From IMG/VR virus record IMGVR_UViG_3300044833_000307, positions 1 through 48,051 of that record: a DNA stretch of 48,051 nucleotides. One strand, given 5' to 3'. Position 1 is the stretch's first letter; each line of letters opens with the position of its first letter. The position numbers were made by a program, and so were the translations under genes. The notes beneath the pieces were generated by a model. The model did not search any database. It saw only the letters and a list, made by a program, of their open reading frames with translations, and was not told the origin of the DNA. Shown here one piece after another: positions 1,729-42,042 of the stretch. The DNA is from a virus.

Positions 1729-1805
1729 TGGCGCGCCCGGTGAGAGTCGAACTCACGTTCGCGAATTTAGAGTTCGCAGCTTTGGCCAGACTAAGCTACG
1801 GGCGC
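1729..1805 (-). tRNA. amber-reading (suppressor) tRNA, anticodon CUA
   Basis: A complete 77-nt cloverleaf with encoded CCA. The acceptor GCGCCCG (1805-1799) pairs with CGGGCGC (1739-1733), with discriminator G and CCA at 1731-1729. T8 and A9 are present. The D stem is GCTT/AAGC with a GG-containing loop. The anticodon stem is GCGAA/TTCGC with loop CTCTAAA, so the anticodon is CTA. The variable loop is GAAC, and the T arm is GTGAG, TTCGACT, CTCAC. CUA pairs with UAG. Discriminator G73 argues against tyrosine or leucine charging and is compatible with Gln, Trp, Asp or Asn; the amino acid is not decided here. It lies in the transcription unit of two genes that contain in-frame UAG (2545 and 3444). 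Confidence 0.95.
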
Positions 1806-4343: not shown

Positions 4344-6125
4344 TCAATTCAGACGCCAATAAACTCCGCCAGAAGGAAGCTCGTTGTAGTTGCCGTCGTA
4401 GGACGACAGGAAATGCCCCATGCCGTCGGCCGCCACGAAATCGGTGGCCGCCTCCGTCTCGTCGATCCCCGCTATGTCGATGGCGCGCTTCAACGTCTCG
4501 TCGCCGTAAATGCCTTCGAGGTATTCGATGGGGTCTTTCAAAAGTTTGTCCACCATCTCTTCGACCCATTGGTCGCTCGGCGGCCCGTCTTGTTCGGTCA
4601 GCGACATCTGTGCGTCGCCCTCTTCCTCCTCCCGGATGCCTTCGGGCGTCCATTCCCCGTAGGAGTCCGGGGATTCCCGCACCATCTCCTCCACGTCGGG
4701 GCGCAACGCGTCCCGCAGCCGCTCTTTGTCTATGTAGCTCTCCAGCATGCTTTGGGTGAACATCTCGGGCTCGGATTGCAATTGCTGCTCCACCATGACG
4801 ATGGCTAGCTGCTCGGCGGAGTCGTAGCTCGGGGCCACCACGTATTCCTTGTCCCCGAAGCTGACGGTGGCGAAGTTCGAGGCCTCCTTCCAGTTCCACA
4901 TGCCGGGGGCGACTTCCAGCCCATGCGCGCCCAGGTAATCCTCCTTCTTGAGGAACTCCATGACCGCCGTCACGGTCTCGGGGTCGTCGATGGCGGCCTC
5001 CACTTCCGTGCGGACGCCCAGTTCCTCGTTCTCGCTTGGCTCCGGCTCGGGTTCCGGGGCCTTGTTTTCGGGGACGGGGTCGGTGGCCGGGTGGGTGCGT
5101 TCGAGATTCGGGTCCGGCGGGTCGCCGGGTGCCGCGGTCTTGCTGGCGGTCACGGGCGGAGCGCCGAGCAAATCATTGATGGTGTTTACGCCCCCGCCCC
5201 CTTTGATGACCAGCTTCAAACCCTCCGGGGGAGGGAACTTCTCGATGAATTGCTTGAGGCGTTCGTCCGTGTGGCGGTTCGACCTGTATTTGATGTCTAT
5301 GCTGCCCGCCCCATCGGGGTCGAAATAAATCGCGCCCTGCTGGAAGGCCGTTTCCGTGTCGGCGATCTCCGGGGTGGCGTTGGAGTTCGGTTGCAGCCAG
5401 CCGCCGTAGCGCCACAGCATCTCGGGGTTGAAGCCGTGGGCGGCGGTGTGCGCGGAGGCGGCCATTTGATCCAAGTATAATTTTTCCATTTCCTCTCCCT
5501 CCGACGCCATCAGGGGGTCGGTTTTGCGGCGGTAGCGGCTTAGCCCGAGGTTTTCCTTGGGCGCTCCATCGATCCTGCGGCGGTTTCCCGGTTCGAACGC
5601 TTGCTGCATGTCCATCCCATCGACGCCGAGGTTTTCCACCCGCACGGCGTCCTCGAAGGGGCAGGCTTCCTCCCACAACTCGGGCTTGTTCTCCAAGTCG
5701 GGGACCTTGCTCCAGAACTCGTGGCCCTCGGGGACATCCGGGGCGACGACGAGGTACTTGTGGACTTTGGCGGCGATCTTTGAGGAAGCTTCACGGCCCC
5801 CGGCGGCCGAAGGGGTCAAATACCAACGCATCTGCTTCTGCTTGATGAAACCCTTCTCCTTGAGGCGGGTGACGGCGGCCCATGAATTGGTGCTGTACTT
5901 CGCGCCAGCAAACAGGGTTTTCTCGATTTCGCCCGTGGTCATCGGGCGCTGGCGGAGGGCTTGGAGAATCTTGTCTTCGTCGGGGTCGCCAGTGGTCGTG
6001 AGGAGCATGGATGTCTTTTCGTGCGCCGCCACCGCCGCCAGGGCGGCTTTGTTGACTCTGGCGGCGTTGCAGCGAATCTCGAACTTGTCAGCGGCGGTGA
6101 GGGCGTCTTTGCGGATGTCGTCCAT
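4344..6125 (-). CDS. large hypothetical protein with N-terminal winged-helix-like region, 593 aa
   Basis: The ATG at 6125 has GGAGCCCACC upstream. Residues about 50-115 (DKILQALRQRPMTTGEIEK, then AVTRLKEKGFIKQ and a basic hairpin ending WYLTP) have the order of a winged helix-turn-helix. A middle domain has repeated aromatic/acidic segments. A proline- and glutamate-rich linker (about 335-380) leads to a strongly acidic C-terminal half of about 200 residues with helices. The shape suggests a DNA-binding or host-takeover protein; no enzyme motif is visible. It lies between the tmRNA terminator and the small gene at 3980. Confidence 0.7.
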   Translation of the reverse strand: MDDIRKDALTAADKFEIRCNAARVNKAALAAVAAHEKTSMLLTTTGDPDEDKILQALRQRPMTTGEIEKTLFAGAKYSTNSWAAVTRLKEKGFIKQKQMRWYLTPSAAGGREASSKIAAKVHKYLVVAPDVPEGHEFWSKVPDLENKPELWEEACPFEDAVRVENLGVDGMDMQQAFEPGNRRRIDGAPKENLGLSRYRRKTDPLMASEGEEMEKLYLDQMAASAHTAAHGFNPEMLWRYGGWLQPNSNATPEIADTETAFQQGAIYFDPDGAGSIDIKYRSNRHTDERLKQFIEKFPPPEGLKLVIKGGGGVNTINDLLGAPPVTASKTAAPGDPPDPNLERTHPATDPVPENKAPEPEPEPSENEELGVRTEVEAAIDDPETVTAVMEFLKKEDYLGAHGLEVAPGMWNWKEASNFATVSFGDKEYVVAPSYDSAEQLAIVMVEQQLQSEPEMFTQSMLESYIDKERLRDALRPDVEEMVRESPDSYGEWTPEGIREEEEGDAQMSLTEQDGPPSDQWVEEMVDKLLKDPIEYLEGIYGDETLKRAIDIAGIDETEAATDFVAADGMGHFLSSYDGNYNELPSGGVYWRLN

Positions 6126-6164
6126 GGTGGGCTCCTACCATAAGGTTCTGATAGACTGTCCCCG

Positions 6165-6207
6165 AAAACAAAAACGCCCGCGGTCAAAGAATCTTGAGGG
6201 CGGGCGT
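6165..6207 (-). terminator. Rho-independent terminator of the tmRNA
   Basis: On the minus strand ACGCCCGC (6207-6200) pairs with GCGGGCGT (6181-6174) around an 18-base loop, followed by TTTTGTTTT. It directly follows the tmRNA coding piece. Confidence 0.85.
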
Positions 6208-6475
6208 CTTGCCGTGTTGAGGAACTCAGGCACGGCCTGAGGCTACCTTAAGCGGCAGCGGCCATTGCAAGAGGAGCAGTGGCGTTTATTGGTTTTGTTC
6301 ATTTACGGGAGTTTACTCCCCGGCCCGTGTGCATCCCACGCTTGCAGTCCGTCGAAACCAATTCGGCCCCGCAGAAGTGATACGGGGTAAATGGTGGAGC
6401 CGGGGGTAATCGAAACCCCGTCCGAAAAGCCGCTTAGGTGCCGTGACCTTCCTTGCGGAAGGGAGTTACGAGCGT
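6174..6475 (-). ncRNA. ssrA: circularly permuted (two-piece) tmRNA
   Basis: In transcription order the acceptor piece comes first. It has a CCTTCC/GGAAGG hairpin with a GCAA loop, TTTTCGGACGGGG, T-loop TTCGATT, then CGGCTCC, A, CCA ending at 6392. A 21-nt intervening segment (6391-6371) follows. The coding piece starts at 6370 with GGGGCCG and GGTTTCGACGG, the classic tmRNA 5' end. GGGGCCG pairs with CGGCTCC including the usual G-U at position 3. A tag frame, probably GCC (6283) to TAA (6248), reads ATAPLAMAAAA and ends in the small hydrophobic residues expected of a protease tag. After it comes an H-type pseudoknot (6241-6212: CTCAGG, loop CCGTG, CCTGAG, then CACGG). A terminator closes it. 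This order is the permuted form. The resume codon is inferred. Confidence 0.93.
6248..6283 (-). other. tmRNA tag-peptide reading frame
   Basis: Inside the tmRNA coding piece the frame ending at TAA 6250-6248 reads back as A-A-A-A-M-A-L-P-A-T-A. The likely resume codon is GCC after AATAAAC. An upstream TGA in this frame limits the tag to at most 17 codons. The alanine-rich hydrophobic end fits a ClpXP-type degradation signal. Confidence 0.75.
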
Positions 6476-6481
6476 ACCTGT

Positions 6482-6510
6482 ATAATACTTCAAAAGACTG
6501 GATTTTGCAA
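6482..6510 (-). promoter_or_regulatory. sigma70-type promoter of the tmRNA
   Basis: TTGCAA (6510-6505, 4 of 6) is followed after 17 bases by TATTAT (6487-6482, 5 of 6) on the minus strand. The expected start is near 6475, just before the acceptor piece. The -35 box begins right after the stop of the 374-aa gene. Confidence 0.75.
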
Positions 6511-7635
6511 CTACTCAGGAAGTCCGGGTTTCAATGGTTCCACGTCGATGGTCGGTCCCTGCCGTTTTGCTGGCGGTCTACTGTACTTACTGAGCCCAGA
6601 TTTTTGGAGATAATCCTTCAGTTCCGCTAGCGTGGTGCCCTCGCCCTTGGGCTTCTCGAACCATGAGTGTTTCCAGCCATCGGAATAAACGCGGATGGCG
6701 TTCATGGCGGCAGCCGGGGGATAGAACGTGGAATACCCGACCTTTCCCCAGCCCAAGGTGTTCATGAAGCGAACCATGTCCTCGAATTCGTCGTCAAATA
6801 TGGCGTCCGGTTCCACGGCTGCTTTATGCCGTCCTTGGCAGACGGTGCAGCGGGCTGCCAATGTTTCATCGCGATGCTCGGGGCAGGTGGGCTTGCCACA
6901 ATCTCCACAGAATTCGAGGGACATCCCGGCATCGGGATGCGTGCTCACGTGGGATTTGCAAATGTGGCAGACATCGTGTTCGATGCCCTGCTCGTCCGTG
7001 TAATGGTAGTCGAACGCGGCGGCGAACAAACGGGTTTGGTCTTTCGTCCCGATGGTGATTTGACGCTCGATATTCCGGACGATCCGCGCCTTGATTTCCG
7101 AGGCCTTTTCGTCTTCCTTATTGTCCCTCGGCTCGTACTGCGTCTCCACCTTGCCTGTCCTCTCCTCCACCCAGAAGAACGTGTACACCCCCTCGTTTCT
7201 TTTTTCCTCGGAGTCGGGGCTGAAATAAAACGCGGCGTTGTGATCCGCCCGCCGGGCTTCCTCGAACGTGTGCACCTCGATGACTTCGCCGTCCTCCACT
7301 CTGGCGACTCCCGACCAGAACTTTTGCCCCTTCCACGTGCCGCGGTTCTCCGGGCCCAGCCCATCCTCGTAAATTTTGTACGCGAGCTTCGAACGTCGGG
7401 TGTATTTGGCGATGGAGCGGACGGCTTCCTTCAATTGCCGGGGGTCGAGACCGCCGCGCTCCGCCCAAGCGCCGATGTGGCGTCCGGTGTTGCCATGGGT
7501 GCGCAGGTAGTCGGCCGCCGGACGGGCGTATCCGCTGACATAGGCCGCCCGCACGGAGACGAACAATTTCCGTGAGCCGATGGGGAACTCCTGAATGGTA
7601 GTGCGCTTGGCTTTCTTGAGGAGGAGGGAATCCAC
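6511..7635 (-). CDS. hypothetical zinc-finger protein, 374 aa
   Basis: GTG start at 7635 with AGGAG seven bases upstream; begins MDSLLLKKAKRTTIQEFPIG. The middle holds a cysteine-rich region of treble-clef or ring type: CHIC, then CGDCGKPTCPEH, then CTVC (about residues 222-270), which should bind two zinc ions. The N-terminal half is mixed alpha/beta with a KGQKFWSGVARVEDGEV segment. The C-terminus is proline-rich and basic. The stop is TAG, followed seven codons later by an in-frame TGA, so suppression would add only LQNPVF after the inserted residue. Function unknown; nucleic-acid or protein binding is likely. Confidence 0.75.
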   Translation of the reverse strand: MDSLLLKKAKRTTIQEFPIGSRKLFVSVRAAYVSGYARPAADYLRTHGNTGRHIGAWAERGGLDPRQLKEAVRSIAKYTRRSKLAYKIYEDGLGPENRGTWKGQKFWSGVARVEDGEVIEVHTFEEARRADHNAAFYFSPDSEEKRNEGVYTFFWVEERTGKVETQYEPRDNKEDEKASEIKARIVRNIERQITIGTKDQTRLFAAAFDYHYTDEQGIEHDVCHICKSHVSTHPDAGMSLEFCGDCGKPTCPEHRDETLAARCTVCQGRHKAAVEPDAIFDDEFEDMVRFMNTLGWGKVGYSTFYPPAAAMNAIRVYSDGWKHSWFEKPKGEGTTLAELKDYLQKSGLSKYSRPPAKRQGPTIDVEPLKPGLPE

Positions 7636-8431: not shown

Positions 8432-9082
8432 TTAGAACGACAATACCCAGCTAAAAATGATATCGACGCCAGCAGGCAGGATCAGGGGAGGGAGGGTCTT
8501 GTAATTTATCAACACCACGGAGTTGGGATTCGGTCCCTGCCCCGGCCCGCTGGTGCCAGCGGGGTCGAAGAACGGGGCGGTCAGCATGTTGGTCGGCCCG
8601 CCGTTGTTTATCGTGCCCCCGCCGATCAAGCCCATCTCGCGGATGCCCTGCGTGATGTTGTCGGTGGTGGCGTTGACCGTGGTTTGGAAGTCCACCATGG
8701 TGGAAAAAGTGGAAAGCGGGTTGAAATTGGCGTCCACGTAATTGACGCGGGAAAGCGGCTTGCGGAGGATTTGCTGGATCACGGCCGTCTGCACGGGCGT
8801 TGGGTCGGGCTGCGTCTCGGGTGCCCAACCGGGGCTGCCAGCACCGAGGGCCAAGCCCCACACACCATAAAACGGGTCGCTATTGGTGTCGCTGGTTTCA
8901 CCCAGTGCATACGGGGGATTGGGAGTGTTGGGAATGCTGTTGGCCATCAGCCGGGCAAACAACCATTTCACCACGTTGACGATGACGTTGTGGCCTTGGT
9001 ACAGAATTTCTTCGTTGTCCGCCCGCGTCACGCGGATATTGATGCGCGGCGTGTAGTGCGTCAAATCTTCCTTAAGCTGCAT
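8432..9082 (-). CDS. virion structural protein (tail/baseplate), 216 aa
   Basis: I chose ATG 9082 because AGGAGCGAC precedes it. An ATG at 9100 lies six bases after an AGTATTA box and could be a leaderless start adding MQLRSD. The sequence has INIRVTRADNEEILYQGHNV near the start, a Pro/Thr/Asn-rich middle (SIPNTPNPPYALGETS), and a beta-rich C-terminus ending FSWVLSF. This composition is typical of small tail or baseplate proteins. It is the last structural gene of the run that includes the baseplate J-like gene. Confidence 0.7.
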   Translation of the reverse strand: MQLKEDLTHYTPRINIRVTRADNEEILYQGHNVIVNVVKWLFARLMANSIPNTPNPPYALGETSDTNSDPFYGVWGLALGAGSPGWAPETQPDPTPVQTAVIQQILRKPLSRVNYVDANFNPLSTFSTMVDFQTTVNATTDNITQGIREMGLIGGGTINNGGPTNMLTAPFFDPAGTSGPGQGPNPNSVVLINYKTLPPLILPAGVDIIFSWVLSF

Positions 9083-9106
9083 GTCGCTCCTGAGTTGCAT
9101 CTTGCT

Positions 9107-12559: not shown

Positions 12560-15500
12560 TTAAGAAGCCGTCAGATAATTTATGGTGATGCGGCCGGGGG
12601 ACAGGAACTCAGTGGAGCTTACGGTGATGTCCGTGGCCCCGCCCTCCCCGAACACTTGGTAAGTCACGAGGTAGCTGAGGTTGCCGGGGTTCACCACGTC
12701 CTGCGGCACCACCAGCAAAACCCTCTGCGCGTACGCGTTGCCCAGGGGCGCTGCCGGGCCGATGCTGTCGTTGGTCCCCACGATGTAGAAGGAGCCGGGC
12801 GTGGCGATGGACGCGATGTGCGCCGGGCTGGTGCTGTTGCCGAGGAAGTCCTGCACGCTGGCGGCGCGGCGGAAGACCTGCCCCTCGTAGAGGAAATCGA
12901 CGATGGCGTTGTCCTGCCCGCCTGACGGGAGGGTGCTGTCGGGCAGCACGGGGAGCGCGGTTATCCAGCTATTGGACGGCACGTTCAGCTTGGCGAACGC
13001 GGGGTCGCTCTTGAGCGGAACCCAAGCCGTCCCCGTGGGCACCACCACGCCGATGTCGTAGCTGGCATCGCTCTTGGCGCATTTCAGGAGCGGCAATTGC
13101 ACGCTTTGCACCCCGGTGATGGACTGCACCTGCGCCACGAGTTCCGACTGGTGCAAAGTGTTGATGGCGTTGTCCAAGACGATGTTGATGATCGTGCGGA
13201 TCGTGGGGTCGATGGCTTCCGCCGAGGTGTTGGAGTTGAGCGTCACCGCCATGGTGATGTCCACGGGGTTGGCGACCATGGCCTTCACCAGAACGTCGGC
13301 GGCGGCGTGCTTCGTCGCGGCCAGTTGCTTCACGAGGATTTGCACAGCCGCTGGGTATTGCGTGGAAAAGTCGAAGGGCTCCAGATAGAAGTACGACACC
13401 AGCACCGTGCCGCCGTCCGGGATGGTGCCCGTGATGATGCGGGAAACCGTGGCCGTGCCGGAGATCGGATCGACGCCCAGGGCGAAGTCGATGCCCTCTT
13501 TCTTGACGATATTCGCGGTGCCGTTGTAGTACGTGACCTTGACGTACCTGGAATTGTAGGGCACTTGCGCCCCGATCAAGCCCGTGTAGCCCAGCACCGT
13601 CGTCCCGGAGAGGGCTTGCGTCGCAAGCGCCGAGCCCGCCACGTCGAGGCTGCCGTCCAGCGCGTATTGCCCGTTCCAGCCGTCGTAAACGAGGGCGAGG
13701 TACGTGGCGTTCACGGAGCCGCTGGCGAAGGGGAAGGACGGGATGCCCGCGCTGTAGCTCTGGGGCAGCCACACGTTGTTCACGAAACCTTGGTTGTCCA
13801 GCGTGGTGGGCAAAGTGCCGTTCAGTACCTGCGGCTCGGCGGGGGCGAACGAGAGCCGTTCGTACAGCACGAATTTGTTGTAGCCCACCACCACCGACTG
13901 GTTGTTTTGTATGGCGCTGCCGCTGGCCAGCCCGGTGTCCCCCGCCGTCGATTGATTGGGGGTTGTGAAGGCGACGGTGAAGGCCGTGGGCGTCGCGGCG
14001 GCCACGGGCAAGGTTTGCCCGTTCAGAAAAGTGGCGTTCAACAGGCCGCTGAAGGATATCGGCGCGCCGACCCCGAACTCATTGTTGGCCGTTATGGTGG
14101 CGACGTTGTTCAGCACGCTGACGGCGCTGATGAGGACCGAGGAGACCAGCACCCGCAACCCGTAGGTGCGGTAAGCCCCGGTGGGCACGATGCCGTAGTC
14201 GATCCCGTTTTGGTACAGCGTGGACGAATCCGTGCTGCGCACCGAAAGGACCCCCAGCGGGTTGCCGTTGGCGTCCACGGGCACGTCCATGGCCGTGTCG
14301 ATCACCGCGGGCTGGGCCAGCAGCGCCGTGACCGTGGAGGTGGCGGGCTGGCTGGCTATGTTCACTTGCACGATGTCGCCCGCGTCGTTCGACCCGCCGT
14401 CGAGCAGGAAGTCCGAGGTGTGGATCAATTGCGTGACGGCCGAGGACACGACTCCCGTCAGGCCGGACTGCCCGGCGATGGACAGGATGCTGGTGACGGG
14501 CTGAAGCGACGGCACGAGCACGAAAGGCGACTTGTAGCGGGCGAACAGCGCGAAGGAGTACGTCCCCGTGGTGGCGCTGCTGAGGGCCGAGACCACCGCT
14601 GAATTGGTGGCCGGGTTGCCGTTCAACACGAGGGGCGCTTTGACTTGGGAGACGCTGCCGCCGAGGTATTGGTACGCCATGTCCGTGGCGTTCAGGACGA
14701 TGTCCCCGTTCACGTTGTCGAACTGCGCGCGGTCCAGCCCCAGGTAAAATGAACTGCCCAAGCGGCTGACCTGAAGCTCCACGGCGTCGTACAGGGGGAA
14801 CGGCAGGCCGCCGAACCCGGCGATTTGGAATTTCATGCCGCTGACGGGGTTCAACGGGATGTAGGTGCTGGCCTGCCCGTAGGTCCCGGCGCTCCGGTAC
14901 TGGAAGAAGGCTGTCTCGTCCTGCTGGGAGGCGGTGGTCCCGCGGGTGTACACGTCCACGCAGCCGAACACGTGCTTCTGGCGGATGGGGTCCCAGTCCC
15001 TGACCATCTCCACGTCGCCCGCCGCGACCACTTGCGCCCCGACGATGCCGGGGGTGCTGAGCGCGGTGACGAGGTAGCCGTGCCGCGTTCCGGTGTCCAC
15101 GCCCGTGACGTTGCGCGCCTGGATGCGGGCCGCGAAATGGGCGTTGGACTCGCTGTCCGTGCCGAACCGCGCGGAGACGAGGTTGGTGACGTTCATGCCC
15201 GAGGGGACGTTGCTGACCACCTGGGCGATGCTGCCGCTGCCGACGCTGGTCGCGCTGCCCGCGGAGGCGCATTGCGCGGGGACATCCACGCCCCACCAGC
15301 CGTACTGGGTGTTGTAAAAAGAAGTCAGGTTGCTGACGTTGAGCAACGCCTGCCCCTGCGTGACGAACGTCAGGGCCGGGACGGTGGCGTCCGAGATGGT
15401 GGCCACCACGGCGTTCTGCGGGATCAGTATGCTTTGCTGCGGCTGCTGGTAGGTGTAGAAGGTCAGGACCACGGTGGACGACGAGGCCGCTAACCGCGTC

Positions 15501-30142: not shown

Positions 30143-30246
30143 TAGACCGCCGCTCCCATCGAGGCATGGTTATGCCTGTAAATTTTTTCTATGTGGTTGA
30201 AAAATGTGTTCTCAGTTAAGTTCAATTCATTACGTTGACGTGCCAT
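30142..30246 (-). CDS. small hypothetical protein, 34 aa
   Basis: ATG 30246 is preceded by GGAGGTTAG, one of the best ribosome binding sites in the window. It reads MARQRNELNLTENTFFNHIE, then KIYRHNHASMGAAV. The TAA overlaps the ATG of the 1295-aa fibre gene, so it is coupled to it. Its start lies inside the end of the zinc-ribbon gene at 30222 in another frame. It may be a small virion or chaperone-like protein, or a device to couple fibre translation. Confidence 0.6.
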   Translation of the reverse strand: MARQRNELNLTENTFFNHIEKIYRHNHASMGAAV

Positions 30247-30647
30247 CTAACCTCCATGCAGAGCCCACAATTTCCAATCCGGCCGGAGTTCAGGTGGTCG
30301 CCCTTGACAGTGATCAAGTTTCCGCACACACATTTGCAAGCCCAAAGAGAATGACTAGCCCCACTGGGGGCCTTCTCTGATCCTGCCCGCCACACCACCA
30401 ACAAACTACCGAACCGCTTATTTGTGAGGTTGTAGCGTTTCTCCATCTTGGATTTCTTGAAGCGGTTACTGGCGCAACCGCAACTCCTCGCCCGCCCAGT
30501 CAGCAAACTGTCCTCACGAACCGATTTATCCGTGCCACAAAGGCAATGCACCATCCACATATGGTGCTTTTGCGGGCCGGGGCACTCCCCCGTGACGCTC
30601 AGGAGCCCAAAGCTCATTCCGGTCAAATTTTTACGGATTTTACGCAT
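30222..30647 (-). CDS. protein with two tandem zinc-ribbon/AP2-like DNA-binding units, 141 aa
   Basis: Begins MRKIRKNLTGMSFGLLSVTG. Two copies of one unit are visible: NLTGMSFGLLSV..., CLCGTDKSVREDSLLTGRAR, SCGC, and NLTNKRFGSLLVV..., CKCVCGNLITVKGDHLNSGR, NCGLC. This 'NLTGxxFGxLxV...C-x-C-G...SGxxxSCGC' unit accompanies homing endonucleases in phages as a DNA-binding domain. No nuclease motif is present, so it may be a free-standing binding domain or a fragment. No good ribosome binding site precedes ATG 30647. It is divergent from the plus-strand gene at 30656. Confidence 0.6.
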   Translation of the reverse strand: MRKIRKNLTGMSFGLLSVTGECPGPQKHHMWMVHCLCGTDKSVREDSLLTGRARSCGCASNRFKKSKMEKRYNLTNKRFGSLLVVWRAGSEKAPSGASHSLWACKCVCGNLITVKGDHLNSGRIGNCGLCMEVRWHVNVMN

Positions 30648-37023: not shown

Positions 37024-39368
37024 TAGGCGTTCTCCTCGCCGGGCGCGGGGATTTGCCCGCCTTGGTTGTTCACGATGTCCGGGGCCTCGGTCGTGTCGCG
37101 CACGAGCGACATGCTGACCTTCTTTTGCTGCGTGGAGATGTCGTCGGTCTTCGTGACGTGCAGCCGTGTGGCGCACTCGGTGATCCAGTCGCCCGTGCAG
37201 TGGTATTGCAGGTGCCCCATGTGGGTGATGTCTATGTCACCTTGGATTTCAAGCCGCAAGGCCTTGCCTTGCTTGTTGGGCTTGATCGTGATCTCGCAGC
37301 CCCCGAACAGGCTGGCCGTGACGGAGCGCCCCTGCGCGTCCGCGCCGACCGTCGCGACGAGGCCGCCGTCCGTGTCGATGAGGATCGACTGCTGGGAGAC
37401 GGGGTTGCTGCCGACGCGGATGAGCATGTCGCTGGTGGAGTGCAGGTCGAGGGACAGCCCGTGCTGGTCCATGGGCGAGTTGCCGAGCCCTGCTCCAGGC
37501 ACGGGGGTGCCGCTCCACGAAGCGATGTTGTAGGGCGGAAAATTGAGAGTCGGCTGCCCTGCGAGAGCAAGGTCGTGAAAAGCGTAGTTGCTGTCGCCAG
37601 CGCCGTAATTAGGACGGCCGGGCGAGTGAGAGTCAACGCGGTTCGGGTCGCCCACCGCATAAGGAATCTTGCCCTGCCCGTCTTGGTATCCATTTTTGAG
37701 GTGCCGTCGCTTGGCAGCAGGATTGCGACCGCCGAGGCGAACAACAGCAGCGCCGTCGAGGGCGGCACGGAGTGAGACATTTTCGGCTCCTATTTTGTTG
37801 TAGCCCTGCGCGTTCACCCCGGAATCGCCGGGGCTCAACTTCACATGGCTGCCGTCCCAGTATTGAAGTTGCCGCTTGTCGGAGGCGTCCCCCTTCTCGC
37901 GGCTCTGGGTGTGCACCGTGCGGCGGGCGTTCGGCAAAGAGGTGTCGTCCGCGCCCAAGCGGATCACTGCTTGGCCCAGCGCCTGGATGTCGAGGGCTTC
38001 TTCTTCGTCCCGGTTCTTGCCCACCACCAGCTTGGCGGAGCCCACCAGATGGGCCTCCAAGGAACGCCCCGCGCCGTGCGCGTTTTCATAAGCGCCGTCG
38101 CCTATCCCCACGTTTTCCTTGGGCAGCGTGGAGCCGATTTCCAGGCTGGTGAAGCCTTCCTTCGTCACGTCCAGCCGGGTGGTGTTGTACTCGTAGGGGA
38201 AGCGGATGCTCATGCACGAAGCGGCGAGGCGGGCCTCCACGTGGTCGGCGGATTCCGTGACGGGCATGTGGCCGGAATCCACGTCGGCCCCGAAGCGCGA
38301 GTAAAACAACGCGGGCTTGAGGACTTGCCCGTACGTGCTCTTGTCGAAAATGTTGTGGCCCACCAGCGTGCCTTGGGACTTTTCAAGGATGTAGCCACGG
38401 CGGGCGGGCGTCGCGCCTTCGGCGAGCGCCGGGCCGACGGGCTTGGTCTTGGTGTTGTACGGGTGGTCCCATTGCTGCGAAGCCATGAATGTCTGGCTGT
38501 CGCTCGCCACCTGCCCGCTGGGGGACGTGACCGTGGTGCGGGTCCACGGGCTGGCCACCGTGCCGAGGATCGCATCCAGCAGGCTCGTCTGGATGGATTC
38601 GATGGGCGGGACGTAGTCGAGGGCGAACTCCTGCACCAGTTCCGTGGCCTCGGAGAACGGGATCACGTCCGGCTTGCCGTCCACATAACGATCCGATGGC
38701 TGGGAGCCGGGCTGCAAATACGAAACGAATTCCTGCGTCCCGTCCGGCAGGGTGACGCCGGGTATGTTGGGGGCGTTGGGGCGGTTCACCGGGCCGTGGT
38801 AGCTCACCCCCGCGCCCGTGAGGCTGACGTTGCGCCCCGTGACGTGCGTGCGGGTGCGGCGATCCGCGTCCAGCTTGTCGCGGCTGAAGTCCGAGCCCAG
38901 GCGGTCCCAGTCCTGGTCGATCTTTTCCGAGTACCCCCCGGTGTAGCTGGAGGTGCGCTGCCCCGGATAGGCTTTGCGGTACGTGCCGCGCAGGCGATCC
39001 GACCAGCCCTGCATCTCCGAGCCCTCCACGCCCCGCTGGGCCACGGCGTCGATGTTGTTGATCTGGTCGCTGTTGATCCAGCTAATGATGATTACTTGGC
39101 TGAAGCCCAGGCTGTAGTTGATGTGCATCGCCACGCAGGACGAGAATTGCTCCGGCATGTTGATGTCGATGCCCGTGGATGAGGAGGTGTTCGAAGGCCA
39201 CTGGCGGATGTCCGTGTAGACGCCCTTGGTGCCCACGTCCTCGATGGCGAGGACGTGCCGCTCGTAATCGACCGTGAGCACGCGCCCGATGAAGGGCGCG
39301 AACTTGAGGGCGTCCCGCTCGCGGGCGAGCGGCCCCGGATGGTAAAGCTGCGTGTTGTCGCTAACCAT
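37023..39368 (-). CDS. baseplate central spike / gp5-VgrG-like protein, 781 aa
   Basis: Begins MVSDNTQLYHPGPLARERDA. Residues about 25-60 (FIGRVLTVDYERHVLAIEDV) look like the OB-fold of gp5/VgrG-type hub-spike proteins. The C-terminal third has the spike's beta rungs: SILIDTDGGLVATVGADAQG, RSVTASLFGGCEITIKPNKQ, GKALRLEIQGDIDITHMG. These proteins sit at the tip of the tail tube and pierce the cell envelope. The start overlaps the last codons of the hub gene, whose stop is TAG (ATGGTTAG). Confidence 0.75.
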   Translation of the reverse strand: MVSDNTQLYHPGPLARERDALKFAPFIGRVLTVDYERHVLAIEDVGTKGVYTDIRQWPSNTSSSTGIDINMPEQFSSCVAMHINYSLGFSQVIIISWINSDQINNIDAVAQRGVEGSEMQGWSDRLRGTYRKAYPGQRTSSYTGGYSEKIDQDWDRLGSDFSRDKLDADRRTRTHVTGRNVSLTGAGVSYHGPVNRPNAPNIPGVTLPDGTQEFVSYLQPGSQPSDRYVDGKPDVIPFSEATELVQEFALDYVPPIESIQTSLLDAILGTVASPWTRTTVTSPSGQVASDSQTFMASQQWDHPYNTKTKPVGPALAEGATPARRGYILEKSQGTLVGHNIFDKSTYGQVLKPALFYSRFGADVDSGHMPVTESADHVEARLAASCMSIRFPYEYNTTRLDVTKEGFTSLEIGSTLPKENVGIGDGAYENAHGAGRSLEAHLVGSAKLVVGKNRDEEEALDIQALGQAVIRLGADDTSLPNARRTVHTQSREKGDASDKRQLQYWDGSHVKLSPGDSGVNAQGYNKIGAENVSLRAALDGAAVVRLGGRNPAAKRRHLKNGYQDGQGKIPYAVGDPNRVDSHSPGRPNYGAGDSNYAFHDLALAGQPTLNFPPYNIASWSGTPVPGAGLGNSPMDQHGLSLDLHSTSDMLIRVGSNPVSQQSILIDTDGGLVATVGADAQGRSVTASLFGGCEITIKPNKQGKALRLEIQGDIDITHMGHLQYHCTGDWITECATRLHVTKTDDISTQQKKVSMSLVRDTTEAPDIVNNQGGQIPAPGEENA

Positions 39369-42042
39369 TGTTGACTATGCTCTTCAATTTCTGCGCCGCC
39401 CATTGCACGCTTGTGGGAGTGGCATTCACGTCCGGCGTGGCGGAAAGCTGCTGCTGCGCCTGCCGCGCCCCGACTTTGGGCGAAACCTGCCCACTGACTA
39501 ATACCGTGATAAGCTGCTGTTCGGTGGGGACGGTGTTGGCCAGTTGCAGGGCGGCGGCCCGATTTTGAATGTCCGGCTGGGCGGCGTTCAGCAATTGCTT
39601 GTCCCCGCCGCTCTGGGGTTGGGAGTAGTCCAGCACGATGACTGTGTCGGTCTCCGCTTGGTTCTGCAACTGGGCCAAGGCCGCGATCAGCGCATTCGAG
39701 GGGCTGTCCGTGGCCGTGGGGGTGCCCAGCCCCGCGAACAAAAACGACTCCGTGGCGTTCAACACGCTGATGTCCTGCTGGTTGGTCGTGGGGTTGCCGT
39801 TCACGTCCGTGCGCGGCGCGATGTACCCGTCCTCGGTGAATTCCTTTATCGTTTCGCGGAGGTTGCGCCAGCGGCCCCATGGGAAGGGGGCGAGCACCTC
39901 GTAGCCGTTTTTGTCGGTGAACGGGATCGTGCCGCGCTGGAGATCGACGAAGTACGAGTTGTCCACGCGGCGCGGATGGTCCCAGTAGCCGGAGCCCGCT
40001 CGCGGGCTGGACACCGGAAGGCCTAGGGAGCCGTATACCGGGGCAGCCCCGCTGTTCTTCGCCGTCCCGTGCTGGCTGGAGCCGTCCGGCACCACGACGT
40101 AGCTCGAAGTGGGGGTGTCGGGCTGCATGTTCCACGAGGACGCCAAGCGTTGCGACCGCTGGGTCTGGAGGATGTTGTCGTGCGTCGAGGGGCTGTAGCC
40201 CGGAGGGGTGGTCAGGGTCGCCGCCTGGCCCACGGGGTTGGCCGGATTGGGCGGGACGGAGAAGAGCGACTGGAAGCGGGCGAGATTGTTCCCCGAGGAC
40301 TGGTTGGGGTCGGGGCCCGTCTTGGCCGTGAAGTTGGATTTCGTGAACTGGTAGACGAGGTTCTGGGAACTCGTGTAGCGCGTGTAGGGCACGCCGTCCG
40401 TGGACTTCGCCGACTGCGGCACCAGCACGCGCTTGCGGATGGAGTCGCACACCACCGTCATGACGGCCGTGCCCCCGACTTGGTAGGCGGTGTTGACGCT
40501 CTTGATGTACCCGTACATGTCCTTGTGCGGGAAGTACATGGGGAAGCCGATCTTCAGTTCCGGGCGCATCGGGATGGTCACCGTGTAGGTGCGGTAGCCG
40601 CGGTTGGCCCGCACGGTCTCGCAGACGGCGTGGGAGAACAGCGTGACCTTGTCCTGGTCCTGAATCCACGGTATCTGCAAGGTGGGCTCCTCACGCAGCC
40701 CGAATTGTTGCAGCTTGGGTATGTCGATCCAGTCCGCGGTGCCGAGCCAAGTCTTCCCCAGCCCCATCTGGAGGGACGGCATGAGGCTGCCCTGCACCGC
40801 GCAGCGAGTCTTGCGGACGGCCGCTTCGTCCTCCGTCTCGTTCTCCGTGAGGATTTCCGACAGGTGCACGACGAAGGGGTTGGTGTTCTCATTGATTTCC
40901 GTCAGCGGGTTGCTGGCGCTGGAGTACGGGTCTCCGCTGCCCGCCTTGTCGGGCGAGGTGCTGACGTTCCGGGGGCCGAGGTCCGTGACATCGAGGTTGT
41001 ACAGCGGCGGCTTGATGATGATCTTGCCATCGATGTCCTGGTAGGCCTCGAAGGAGATAATCTGGACCAGCTTGCGCAGGTGCTCCAAGCGGGTGACAAT
41101 GCGGTTGTTCAGAAGGCTGGGCCCGGTGATCTTCGATTCCGGGGCGAAGTCGCGAATTTTCAGGTAGTACAGGTCATCCAATTTTTGGGCGGTGTTTTGC
41201 GTGGGCATGGCCGCGTTCGCCGCGGGCTGCAAGTCCTTCCCCCCGTCGCCCTGCACCTCGGATGGCTTGGTCTTGAGGCCCTCGGTGACGCGGTCCTTGT
41301 ACGACGTGCCGTAGATGTGGATGTCCTTGGCGAGGTTGTTCAAGACGGCGTTCCACTTGACGATGAAGCCGCCAGCGACCGCGCCGTGGAAGGGGTCGCT
41401 TTCGAGGCCGGGGGTGGACTGGCCGATGGCGTCCTGCGTAAAAATCGAAGTGTCCAGCGCGTCGGTCAGCATGGCGGCGATGATCTCGTAGGGGTTGTTG
41501 TCGGCGTACTTGGTGTCTTGGTACTGGATGGCGACGTTGTTGTCCACGGCGGACTGAATGGACGGGTTGAGGTTCACTTGCATCAACTCCAAGAAGTGCA
41601 TCGTCCCGTGGCACTGCACCGAAATCTCCAGGGTCTTTCCGTTGTCGTTGTAGCCGATGTGGCCGACCACGCCCTTGAACACCCGGCGGTACACCGTCTC
41701 CCCGTGGTTGGCGAGGTAGTAGCCCTTGGCGAAGACTTGGATTTCCATCATCGTGCGGATGAGGTTGTTGCCGCCGGGCATCATGAACAGGTGCTTCAGG
41801 TAATTGGGCACTTGCAGCCCGATGGACGCGCTGGGGACCATGATGTCCGTGTCGCACAGGCAGTTGAAGGCCGTCACGAAATCGTTGAAGTTGACGATGC
41901 TGTAGTGCGCCATCGTGTTGGGGTCGTCGATGAAGTAGTTCAGCAAGTACGGGAGCCCGTCGAGGTACACTACTATGTCCGGCGCGGTCTTGACGATCTC
42001 CCGCTCTTGGACGGTTTGCGATATGTTGCGGATGCCGGGCAT
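39361..42042 (-). CDS. baseplate hub protein (gp27/late-control-D-like), 893 aa
   Basis: Begins MPGIRNISQTVQEREIVKTA and has ILEISVQCHGTMHFL-type segments and a central domain with RTYTVTIPMRPELKIGFPMY, FPHKDMYGYIKSVNTAYQVG and AVMTVVCDSIRKRVLV. This is the pattern of hub proteins that form the ring joining tail tube and spike ('G-D-x-I...GxIxxV.H.....G...T.l'). A 300-residue C-terminal extension is predicted disordered (NPANPVGQAATLTTPPGYSP) and then helical, Q-rich. It is TAATG-coupled to the gene before it. The stop is TAG with no back-up nearby. Confidence 0.7.
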   Translation of the reverse strand: MPGIRNISQTVQEREIVKTAPDIVVYLDGLPYLLNYFIDDPNTMAHYSIVNFNDFVTAFNCLCDTDIMVPSASIGLQVPNYLKHLFMMPGGNNLIRTMMEIQVFAKGYYLANHGETVYRRVFKGVVGHIGYNDNGKTLEISVQCHGTMHFLELMQVNLNPSIQSAVDNNVAIQYQDTKYADNNPYEIIAAMLTDALDTSIFTQDAIGQSTPGLESDPFHGAVAGGFIVKWNAVLNNLAKDIHIYGTSYKDRVTEGLKTKPSEVQGDGGKDLQPAANAAMPTQNTAQKLDDLYYLKIRDFAPESKITGPSLLNNRIVTRLEHLRKLVQIISFEAYQDIDGKIIIKPPLYNLDVTDLGPRNVSTSPDKAGSGDPYSSASNPLTEINENTNPFVVHLSEILTENETEDEAAVRKTRCAVQGSLMPSLQMGLGKTWLGTADWIDIPKLQQFGLREEPTLQIPWIQDQDKVTLFSHAVCETVRANRGYRTYTVTIPMRPELKIGFPMYFPHKDMYGYIKSVNTAYQVGGTAVMTVVCDSIRKRVLVPQSAKSTDGVPYTRYTSSQNLVYQFTKSNFTAKTGPDPNQSSGNNLARFQSLFSVPPNPANPVGQAATLTTPPGYSPSTHDNILQTQRSQRLASSWNMQPDTPTSSYVVVPDGSSQHGTAKNSGAAPVYGSLGLPVSSPRAGSGYWDHPRRVDNSYFVDLQRGTIPFTDKNGYEVLAPFPWGRWRNLRETIKEFTEDGYIAPRTDVNGNPTTNQQDISVLNATESFLFAGLGTPTATDSPSNALIAALAQLQNQAETDTVIVLDYSQPQSGGDKQLLNAAQPDIQNRAAALQLANTVPTEQQLITVLVSGQVSPKVGARQAQQQLSATPDVNATPTSVQWAAQKLKSIVNNG

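Follow-up and report, generated by a model that had tools for sequence, protein, structure and literature searches.

The usual explanation for tmRNA genes in phages is capture from a host, and the locus described here raises the question of whether a phage can carry a working tmRNA in a form foreign to its host lineage. The window, which is the whole stretch of DNA that was analysed, is a complete IMG/VR record of 48,051 bases; it lacks end repeats and is probably a fragment of a phage genome. From its letters, a sequence-only reading had proposed a phage-encoded, circularly permuted tmRNA, and the present analysis confirmed that the locus is a permuted (two-piece) tmRNA gene, encoded by a phage and equipped with a promoter, tag and terminator of its own. 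Judged from comparison with its relatives, it is very probably the functional two-piece tmRNA gene of a jumbo myophage resembling the isolate Tunturi_5.

ARAGORN, one of the checks that had been suggested, calls a permuted tmRNA at 6157–6484 on the minus strand with the tag ATAPLAMAAAA. The Rfam model RF04321 (tmRNA_permuted) gives a full-length match at 6248–6451 with 93.8 bits (E 5.5e-17) against a cut-off of 47. The subtype models that had been named for the same purpose do not support an assignment below this level: the gene scores 66.3 bits with the beta model (RF01850), under that subtype's cut-off of 84, while the alpha (RF01849) and cyano (RF01851) models have no match at cut-off and neither is the best of the clan. 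The one-piece model RF00023 has no match in the window at the place of the tmRNA, unlike in L282–L289, and the possibility of a one-piece gene falsely called as permuted is therefore excluded. The Rfam scan of the window returned no riboswitch.

The features of RF04321 are present throughout the gene, namely the permuted order with a spacer, a 7-bp acceptor stem with G3·U70, A73, an encoded CCA, the T-arm, a tag frame with resume codon, A86 equivalent and stop, and at least one pseudoknot, the 3' one. The elements lie exactly where they had been proposed, with the CCA end at 6392, the GGGGCCG start at 6370 and 21 nt between them, on the minus strand, a point that had gone unstated; the pairing of the ends, GGTTTCGACGG, the frame ending AMAAAA-stop, the H-type pseudoknot and the T-tailed terminator were all located as well (Table 1). 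Unconstrained co-folding of the acceptor and coding pieces restores the 7-bp acceptor stem, and the precursor is presumably cut into two pieces.

Table 1. Features of the tmRNA locus and associated genes (window positions unless a contig is named)
Feature	Position	Strand	Details and basis
Sigma-70-like promoter	6482..6510	minus	-35 TTGCAA 6510-6505, 17 nt, -10 TATTAT 6487-6482; scan
Acceptor piece (encoded first)	6392..6475	minus	ARAGORN, RF04321, covariation; 5' end placed from the promoter
GGAC of acceptor piece	6423-6420	minus	
T-arm	6419-6403	minus	GGGGU-UUCGAUU-ACCCC
Acceptor 3' strand, then A73-CCA	6402-6396, then 6395-6392	minus	CGGCUCC
Intervening spacer	6371..6391	minus	21 nt; predicted substrate of tRNA-processing enzymes for removal
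Coding piece	6212..6370	minus	acceptor 5' strand, GGUUUCGACGG, 5' hairpin, tag, 3' pseudoknot
Acceptor 5' strand	6370-6364	minus	GGGGCCG, G3 opposite U70
GGTTTCGACGG / GGUUUCGACGG element	6359-6349	minus	
5' hairpin		minus	CGGGGAG-UAAA-CUCCCG; in coding piece
Tag frame	6248..6283	minus	resume codon GCC, ATAPLAMAAAA-stop (TAA); A86 equivalent at -4, U85 equivalent at -5
3' H-type pseudoknot	6212..6241	minus	S1 CUCAGG 6241-6236 / CCUGAG 6230-6225; S2 CCGUG 6235-6231 / CACGG 6216-6212
Intrinsic terminator	6166..6208	minus	9-bp stem GACGCCCGC/GCGGGCGTT plus inner stem, T-rich tail; -20.2 kcal/mol
Conserved virion-region gene	8432..9100	minus	landmark upstream of tmRNA; 46% to Tunturi_5 gp222
tRNA, anticodon CUA (reads UAG)	1729..1805	minus	ARAGORN and Rfam
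CUA tRNA near tmRNA, L259	16513-16585		
CUA tRNAs near tmRNA, L263	14861-15140		
CUA tRNAs near tmRNA, L264	16332-16582		
CUA tRNAs near tmRNA, L265	10105-10282		

The promoter that had been claimed was recovered by a scan upstream of the tmRNA (one site found, 0.2 expected in shuffles), and the same scan gave comparably strong sites upstream of the tmRNA in L274, L276, L277 and L278. It was unconvincing in L275, L279, L280 and Tunturi_5, although TATTAT is nonetheless present in L279 and L280. The terminator has a loop that exceeds the length allowed in the scan that found the promoter. T-tailed hairpins 3' of the tag can also be read from the sequence in L274–L278, L280 and Tunturi_5.

Hardly any protein of the window has a match in PHROG or Pfam, and the affiliation of the window comes from the Tunturiibacter phage Tunturi_5, an isolated jumbo myophage of Acidobacteriota with a genome of 308,711 bp whose host is Tunturiibacter psychrotolerans (PMC11924767). 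More than ten window proteins match Tunturi_5 proteins in the same order, mostly at 35–53% identity, and on this collinear block of homologous virion genes the window phage can be placed in a Tunturi_5-like jumbo myophage group. The virion block also contains an ORF resembling an HNH endonuclease (30222–30647, minus strand, PHROG 374), possibly a homing endonuclease. The landmark gene at 8432–9100 matches 13 IMG/VR contigs at 58–76% identity, the longest being 332 kb.

RF04321 reveals a permuted tmRNA in Tunturi_5 itself, at PP885688.1:157899-158195 (L127 1501–1797, minus strand), in the unannotated gap between gp218 and gp219. ARAGORN missed the gene at this locus, and the paper describing the isolate counts 43 tRNAs, while the term tmRNA is absent from it (PMC11924767). 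Among the related IMG/VR records, six have RF04321 matches above the cut-off and two, from one phage, fall just under it; the 332-kb contig likewise holds an unannotated gene of this kind. About 2–5 kb separates the tmRNA from the homologue of gene 8432–9100 upstream of it in Tunturi_5, L259/L260, L261, L263, L264 and L265, an arrangement shared with the window. L275 came to light through its tmRNA pattern, not through kinship of its proteins, and is therefore only a putative member of the phage group. A bacterial contaminant or a chimeric contig might be suspected, as the window is a single metagenomic record without end repeats, but several independent contigs and the genome of an isolate carry this gene at the corresponding phage locus, which makes such an origin scarcely credible.

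Other probes reached less far. BLASTN of the window tmRNA against the phage collection returned nothing, as did the neighbouring genes 6511–7635 and 4344–6125 used as probes in viral contigs, and in LR745208, a distant relative of 485 kb, RF04321 matches nothing. The intervening spacer varies from 4 to 36 nt among the relatives. In L276 and L277 it is only 4 nt (CTTC and CTGC), short enough that the permuted RNA might close into a hairpin.

The comparison covered nine such tmRNA genes, among them the unannotated ones in Tunturi_5 and the 332-kb contig, with stem strands and pseudoknot segments excised by hand before pairs were counted. All seven acceptor pairs form in the nine homologues, and G3·U70 and A73 are each present in 9/9. 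Across the acceptor stem and T-arm, the 12 pairs are 100% formed with two-sided compensatory changes at nine of them; none of 500 shuffles equalled this and slid registers came nowhere near. The 3' pseudoknot is paired in 98.3% of cells in six homologues, with two-sided changes at 7 of 10 pairs, a count made without L276 (one extra loop base) and without L279 and L280 (different 3' layout). The base at -4 from the resume codon, equivalent to A86, is A in all nine genes; in E. coli A86C and A86U abolish tmRNA activity and A86G lowers it (PMC2481249). Because the covariation extends across nine homologous phage genes, a chance resemblance is excluded.

These data also bear on whether the gene could be a passenger, i.e. 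a decaying copy of a bacterial gene that has no present function. Such a fate would fit the four near-identical matches L266–L269, probably one phage, in which RF04321 has no match at the syntenic place, so that the tmRNA is dispensable in some members of the group or located elsewhere. It would also fit the divergence of the sister copy L280/L281, which scores 43.4 bits, just below the RF04321 cut-off, and has an odd T-loop, AUGGCGA in place of UUCGAUU, so that drift may be under way in some copies. Against it stand the covarying stems, the invariant identity elements and the selection on the tag described below, all maintained though the neighbouring genes are only 36–77% identical, as well as the one-piece tmRNA of the sampled Acidobacteriota, which means that the gene was not recently captured from that host. 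A passenger is accordingly very unlikely. Near the place where relatives have their tmRNA, L266 carries an ORF with a low-complexity run of GCT/TAT codons (12655–12790), an Ala/Tyr-rich repeat. In L280 (1501–1730, minus strand), from the sister phage of the window, the 3' end of the tmRNA has the motif CCUAGUAACAGAA, which is also found in alpha-type phage tmRNAs (e.g. L007 and L013) and, set against the idea of an independent fourth permutation, hints at a possible descent from an alpha-type tmRNA.

The tag itself provides a further line of evidence. Seven short tags share the core AP(K)AMA…AAAA: ATAPLAMAAAA in the window, VTAPKAMAFAAAA in L274 and L280, and VTAPKAMAMAAAA, AAPREMAFAAAA, ANAPKAMAAHA and AEPMALAAAA in the others, while the tags of Tunturi_5 and L275 are long and end in MAA. 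Differences between tag codons concentrate at the third position (0.55, against 0.16 and 0.19 at the other two), and 88 of 142 differing codon pairs are synonymous where a crude null predicts 31.6, in an alignment made by hand whose codon pairs are not independent. Since the tags differ mostly by synonymous changes, the peptide is under selection.

This selection is difficult to reconcile with a role as a decoy, whose tRNA-like domain would bind SmpB (and AlaRS/EF-Tu) and inhibit host trans-translation while the mRNA part stays idle. Such a role has been proposed for mycobacteriophage DS6A, which has a tag-less form of tmRNA, a similar molecule being an inhibitor of tmRNA (PMC4131195; PMC11915505), and the window phage, having no SmpB of its own, would necessarily have its RNA compete for that of the host. 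A decoy, however, requires neither the tag frame, stop, A86 equivalent and 3' pseudoknot, all of which are conserved, nor a selected peptide, and is quite improbable here.

The AAAA ending is unusual and typical of the window lineage. The sampled one-piece tags of Acidobacteriota end in ALAA or AYAA, and 42 of 54 distinct tags in other ARAGORN-permuted IMG/VR loci end in LAA or IAA, among the matches listed, some of which are spurious. None of the bacterial genomes searched showed an AMAAAA tag following a TAAAYGC motif. For ClpXP, the terminal Ala-Ala is the main determinant of recognition and the antepenultimate Leu contributes modestly (PMC7652416). The AAAA tag differs from the sampled Acidobacteriota tags yet retains this terminal Ala-Ala, and the idea that it is a non-degron was dropped for that reason. 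That the two-piece tmRNA and APKAMAxAAAA-like tag of this lineage take over tagging during infection of hosts with a one-piece tmRNA, and that host proteases or adaptors handle the tag differently, can be advanced as a tentative proposal, rather doubtful as it stands.

The form of the host tmRNA is central to this argument. One-piece tmRNA scores over the cut-off in 36 of 41 genomes of the Tunturi_5 host family (T. lichenicola G001 and 35 of 40 others), the G001 record bearing the name Edaphobacter lichenicola, which we take to be T. lichenicola. Although RF04321 was passed in 9 of 297 Acidobacteriota genomes, all nine loci proved to be one-piece on inspection and were rejected as permuted tmRNA. 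At such one-piece loci RF04321 reaches 49–72 bits, above its cut-off, with RF00023 at 154–198 bits in the same place, and the ARAGORN 'permuted' call in L322 was discarded as it overlaps a one-piece gene. In the Acidobacteriota genome G166, two one-piece tmRNA-like genes stand in tandem (L284, 1264–1617 and 1696–2028), the second without part of its acceptor end. Neighbours of this sort can raise the RF04321 score of a one-piece gene above cut-off and so give rise to false 'permuted' calls. Because the sampled Acidobacteriota have only the one-piece form, the phage tmRNA was not recently taken from that host. The landmark gene 8432–9100 used as a probe against 396 Acidobacteriota genomes gave a single weak match; by its kinship, the window phage may be taken to infect Acidobacteriota.

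The sequence-only reading had further suggested that the tmRNA might manage stalls produced by UAG recoding. tRNAs with the anticodon CUA, called tRNA-Pyl by ARAGORN and possibly UAG suppressors, are indeed found close to the tmRNA (about 5 kb or less) in the window and in several of its relatives, singly or in runs of up to three. If these tRNAs read through UAG, the tmRNA could clear or tag the resulting stalls; one study describes tmRNA acting in recoded E. coli at UAG codons left unassigned (PMC6207430), and no member carrying a CUA tRNA has a tag that ends in UAG. However, UAG is still a stop in these phages: TAG terminates several window genes, for example 39361–42042, which overlaps the next ATG, and in the relatives' homologues of conserved virion proteins there is no in-frame stop of any kind. 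A UAG-recoded phage of the code 15 type was rejected as a candidate on these grounds. Tunturi_5, moreover, encodes the tmRNA, yet a scan covering 162 kb turned up no CUA tRNA there. The link that had been suggested is thus an unproven association, and rescue coupled to UAG suppression is an unlikely purpose for the gene.

A functional two-piece tmRNA would operate as follows. A host-type sigma-70 promoter would give one precursor RNA, from which host RNase P and tRNA 3'-end processing would remove the 21-nt spacer, leaving the acceptor and coding pieces joined through the acceptor stem and a neighbouring helix. Host AlaRS would charge the molecule by way of G3·U70. The search for a phage smpB that had been advised covered the window and 15 related records, including the complete Tunturi_5, and found no SmpB; it is therefore assumed that host SmpB must serve. 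With host SmpB and EF-Tu, the tmRNA would enter ribosomes stalled on nonstop mRNA; translation would resume at GCC, adding Ala and ATAPLAMAAAA, and the ribosomes would be freed. The likely benefit would be to keep ribosomes in service during infection while mRNA is cut and turned over.

The gene keeps its position across a phage lineage, and the host lineage of Tunturi_5 has one-piece tmRNA; the phage thus seems to possess a rescue system whose form is foreign to its host. Since Tunturi_5 and its host are both in culture, one can ask by experiment whether two-piece tmRNA functions in cells of the one-piece type, whether ribosome rescue of its own is necessary to a phage and whether host proteases read the phage tag differently. 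A search of the open-licence literature found no report of the Tunturi_5 tmRNA, of permuted tmRNA in phages of one-piece hosts or of this tag family.

As to tmRNA in phages more generally, the statement that it is rare needs to be softened. Two-piece tmRNAs number 53 among 18,146 phage genomes (PMC9004378), phage tmRNA sequences of all forms number 79 (PMC11915505), and tmRNA is known in huge phages (PMC7162821). A loose pattern scan of IMG/VR gave at least 120 loci, of which, among the matches listed, 77 are permuted according to ARAGORN, so that permuted genes there number at least 77.

The window gene shares with RF04321, which merges the alpha, beta and cyano families, the gene order acceptor–spacer–coding, the G3·U70 stem, the TTCGA T-loop, GGTTTCGAC and the tag frame, and its score is twice the cut-off; it differs in being phage-borne, in its short alanine-ending tag and in a best subtype (beta) that stays below its own threshold. 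The one-piece tmRNA of Acidobacteriota (RF00023) has the same function and identity elements but is not permuted, and its tag endings contrast with the AAAA, AHA or MAA of the phages. The tmRNA of Tunturi_5 is the positional orthologue of the window gene and has the same structural elements, with a 36-nt spacer and a long tag, AKNSPVVRGTAKVLSFARKFVPAVSSTRAFAMAA, ending in UAG, compared with 21 nt and TAA in the window. DS6A provides a phage-encoded relative reduced to the tRNA-like domain, whereas the window gene has a tag whose peptide is selected. Closer in kind are the Methylophilales phage Melnitz and the pelagimyophages, lytic myophages that have a complete permuted tmRNA as found here (PMC9004378). 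In that set the phage tmRNAs mostly cluster with two-piece tmRNAs of host lineages, whereas the isolate related to the window infects Acidobacteriota, in whose sampled genomes only the one-piece form occurs. Phage-borne permuted tmRNA was thus already known, and what is unusual is to find a phage whose host has one-piece tmRNA carrying the two-piece form together with a tag specific to its lineage.
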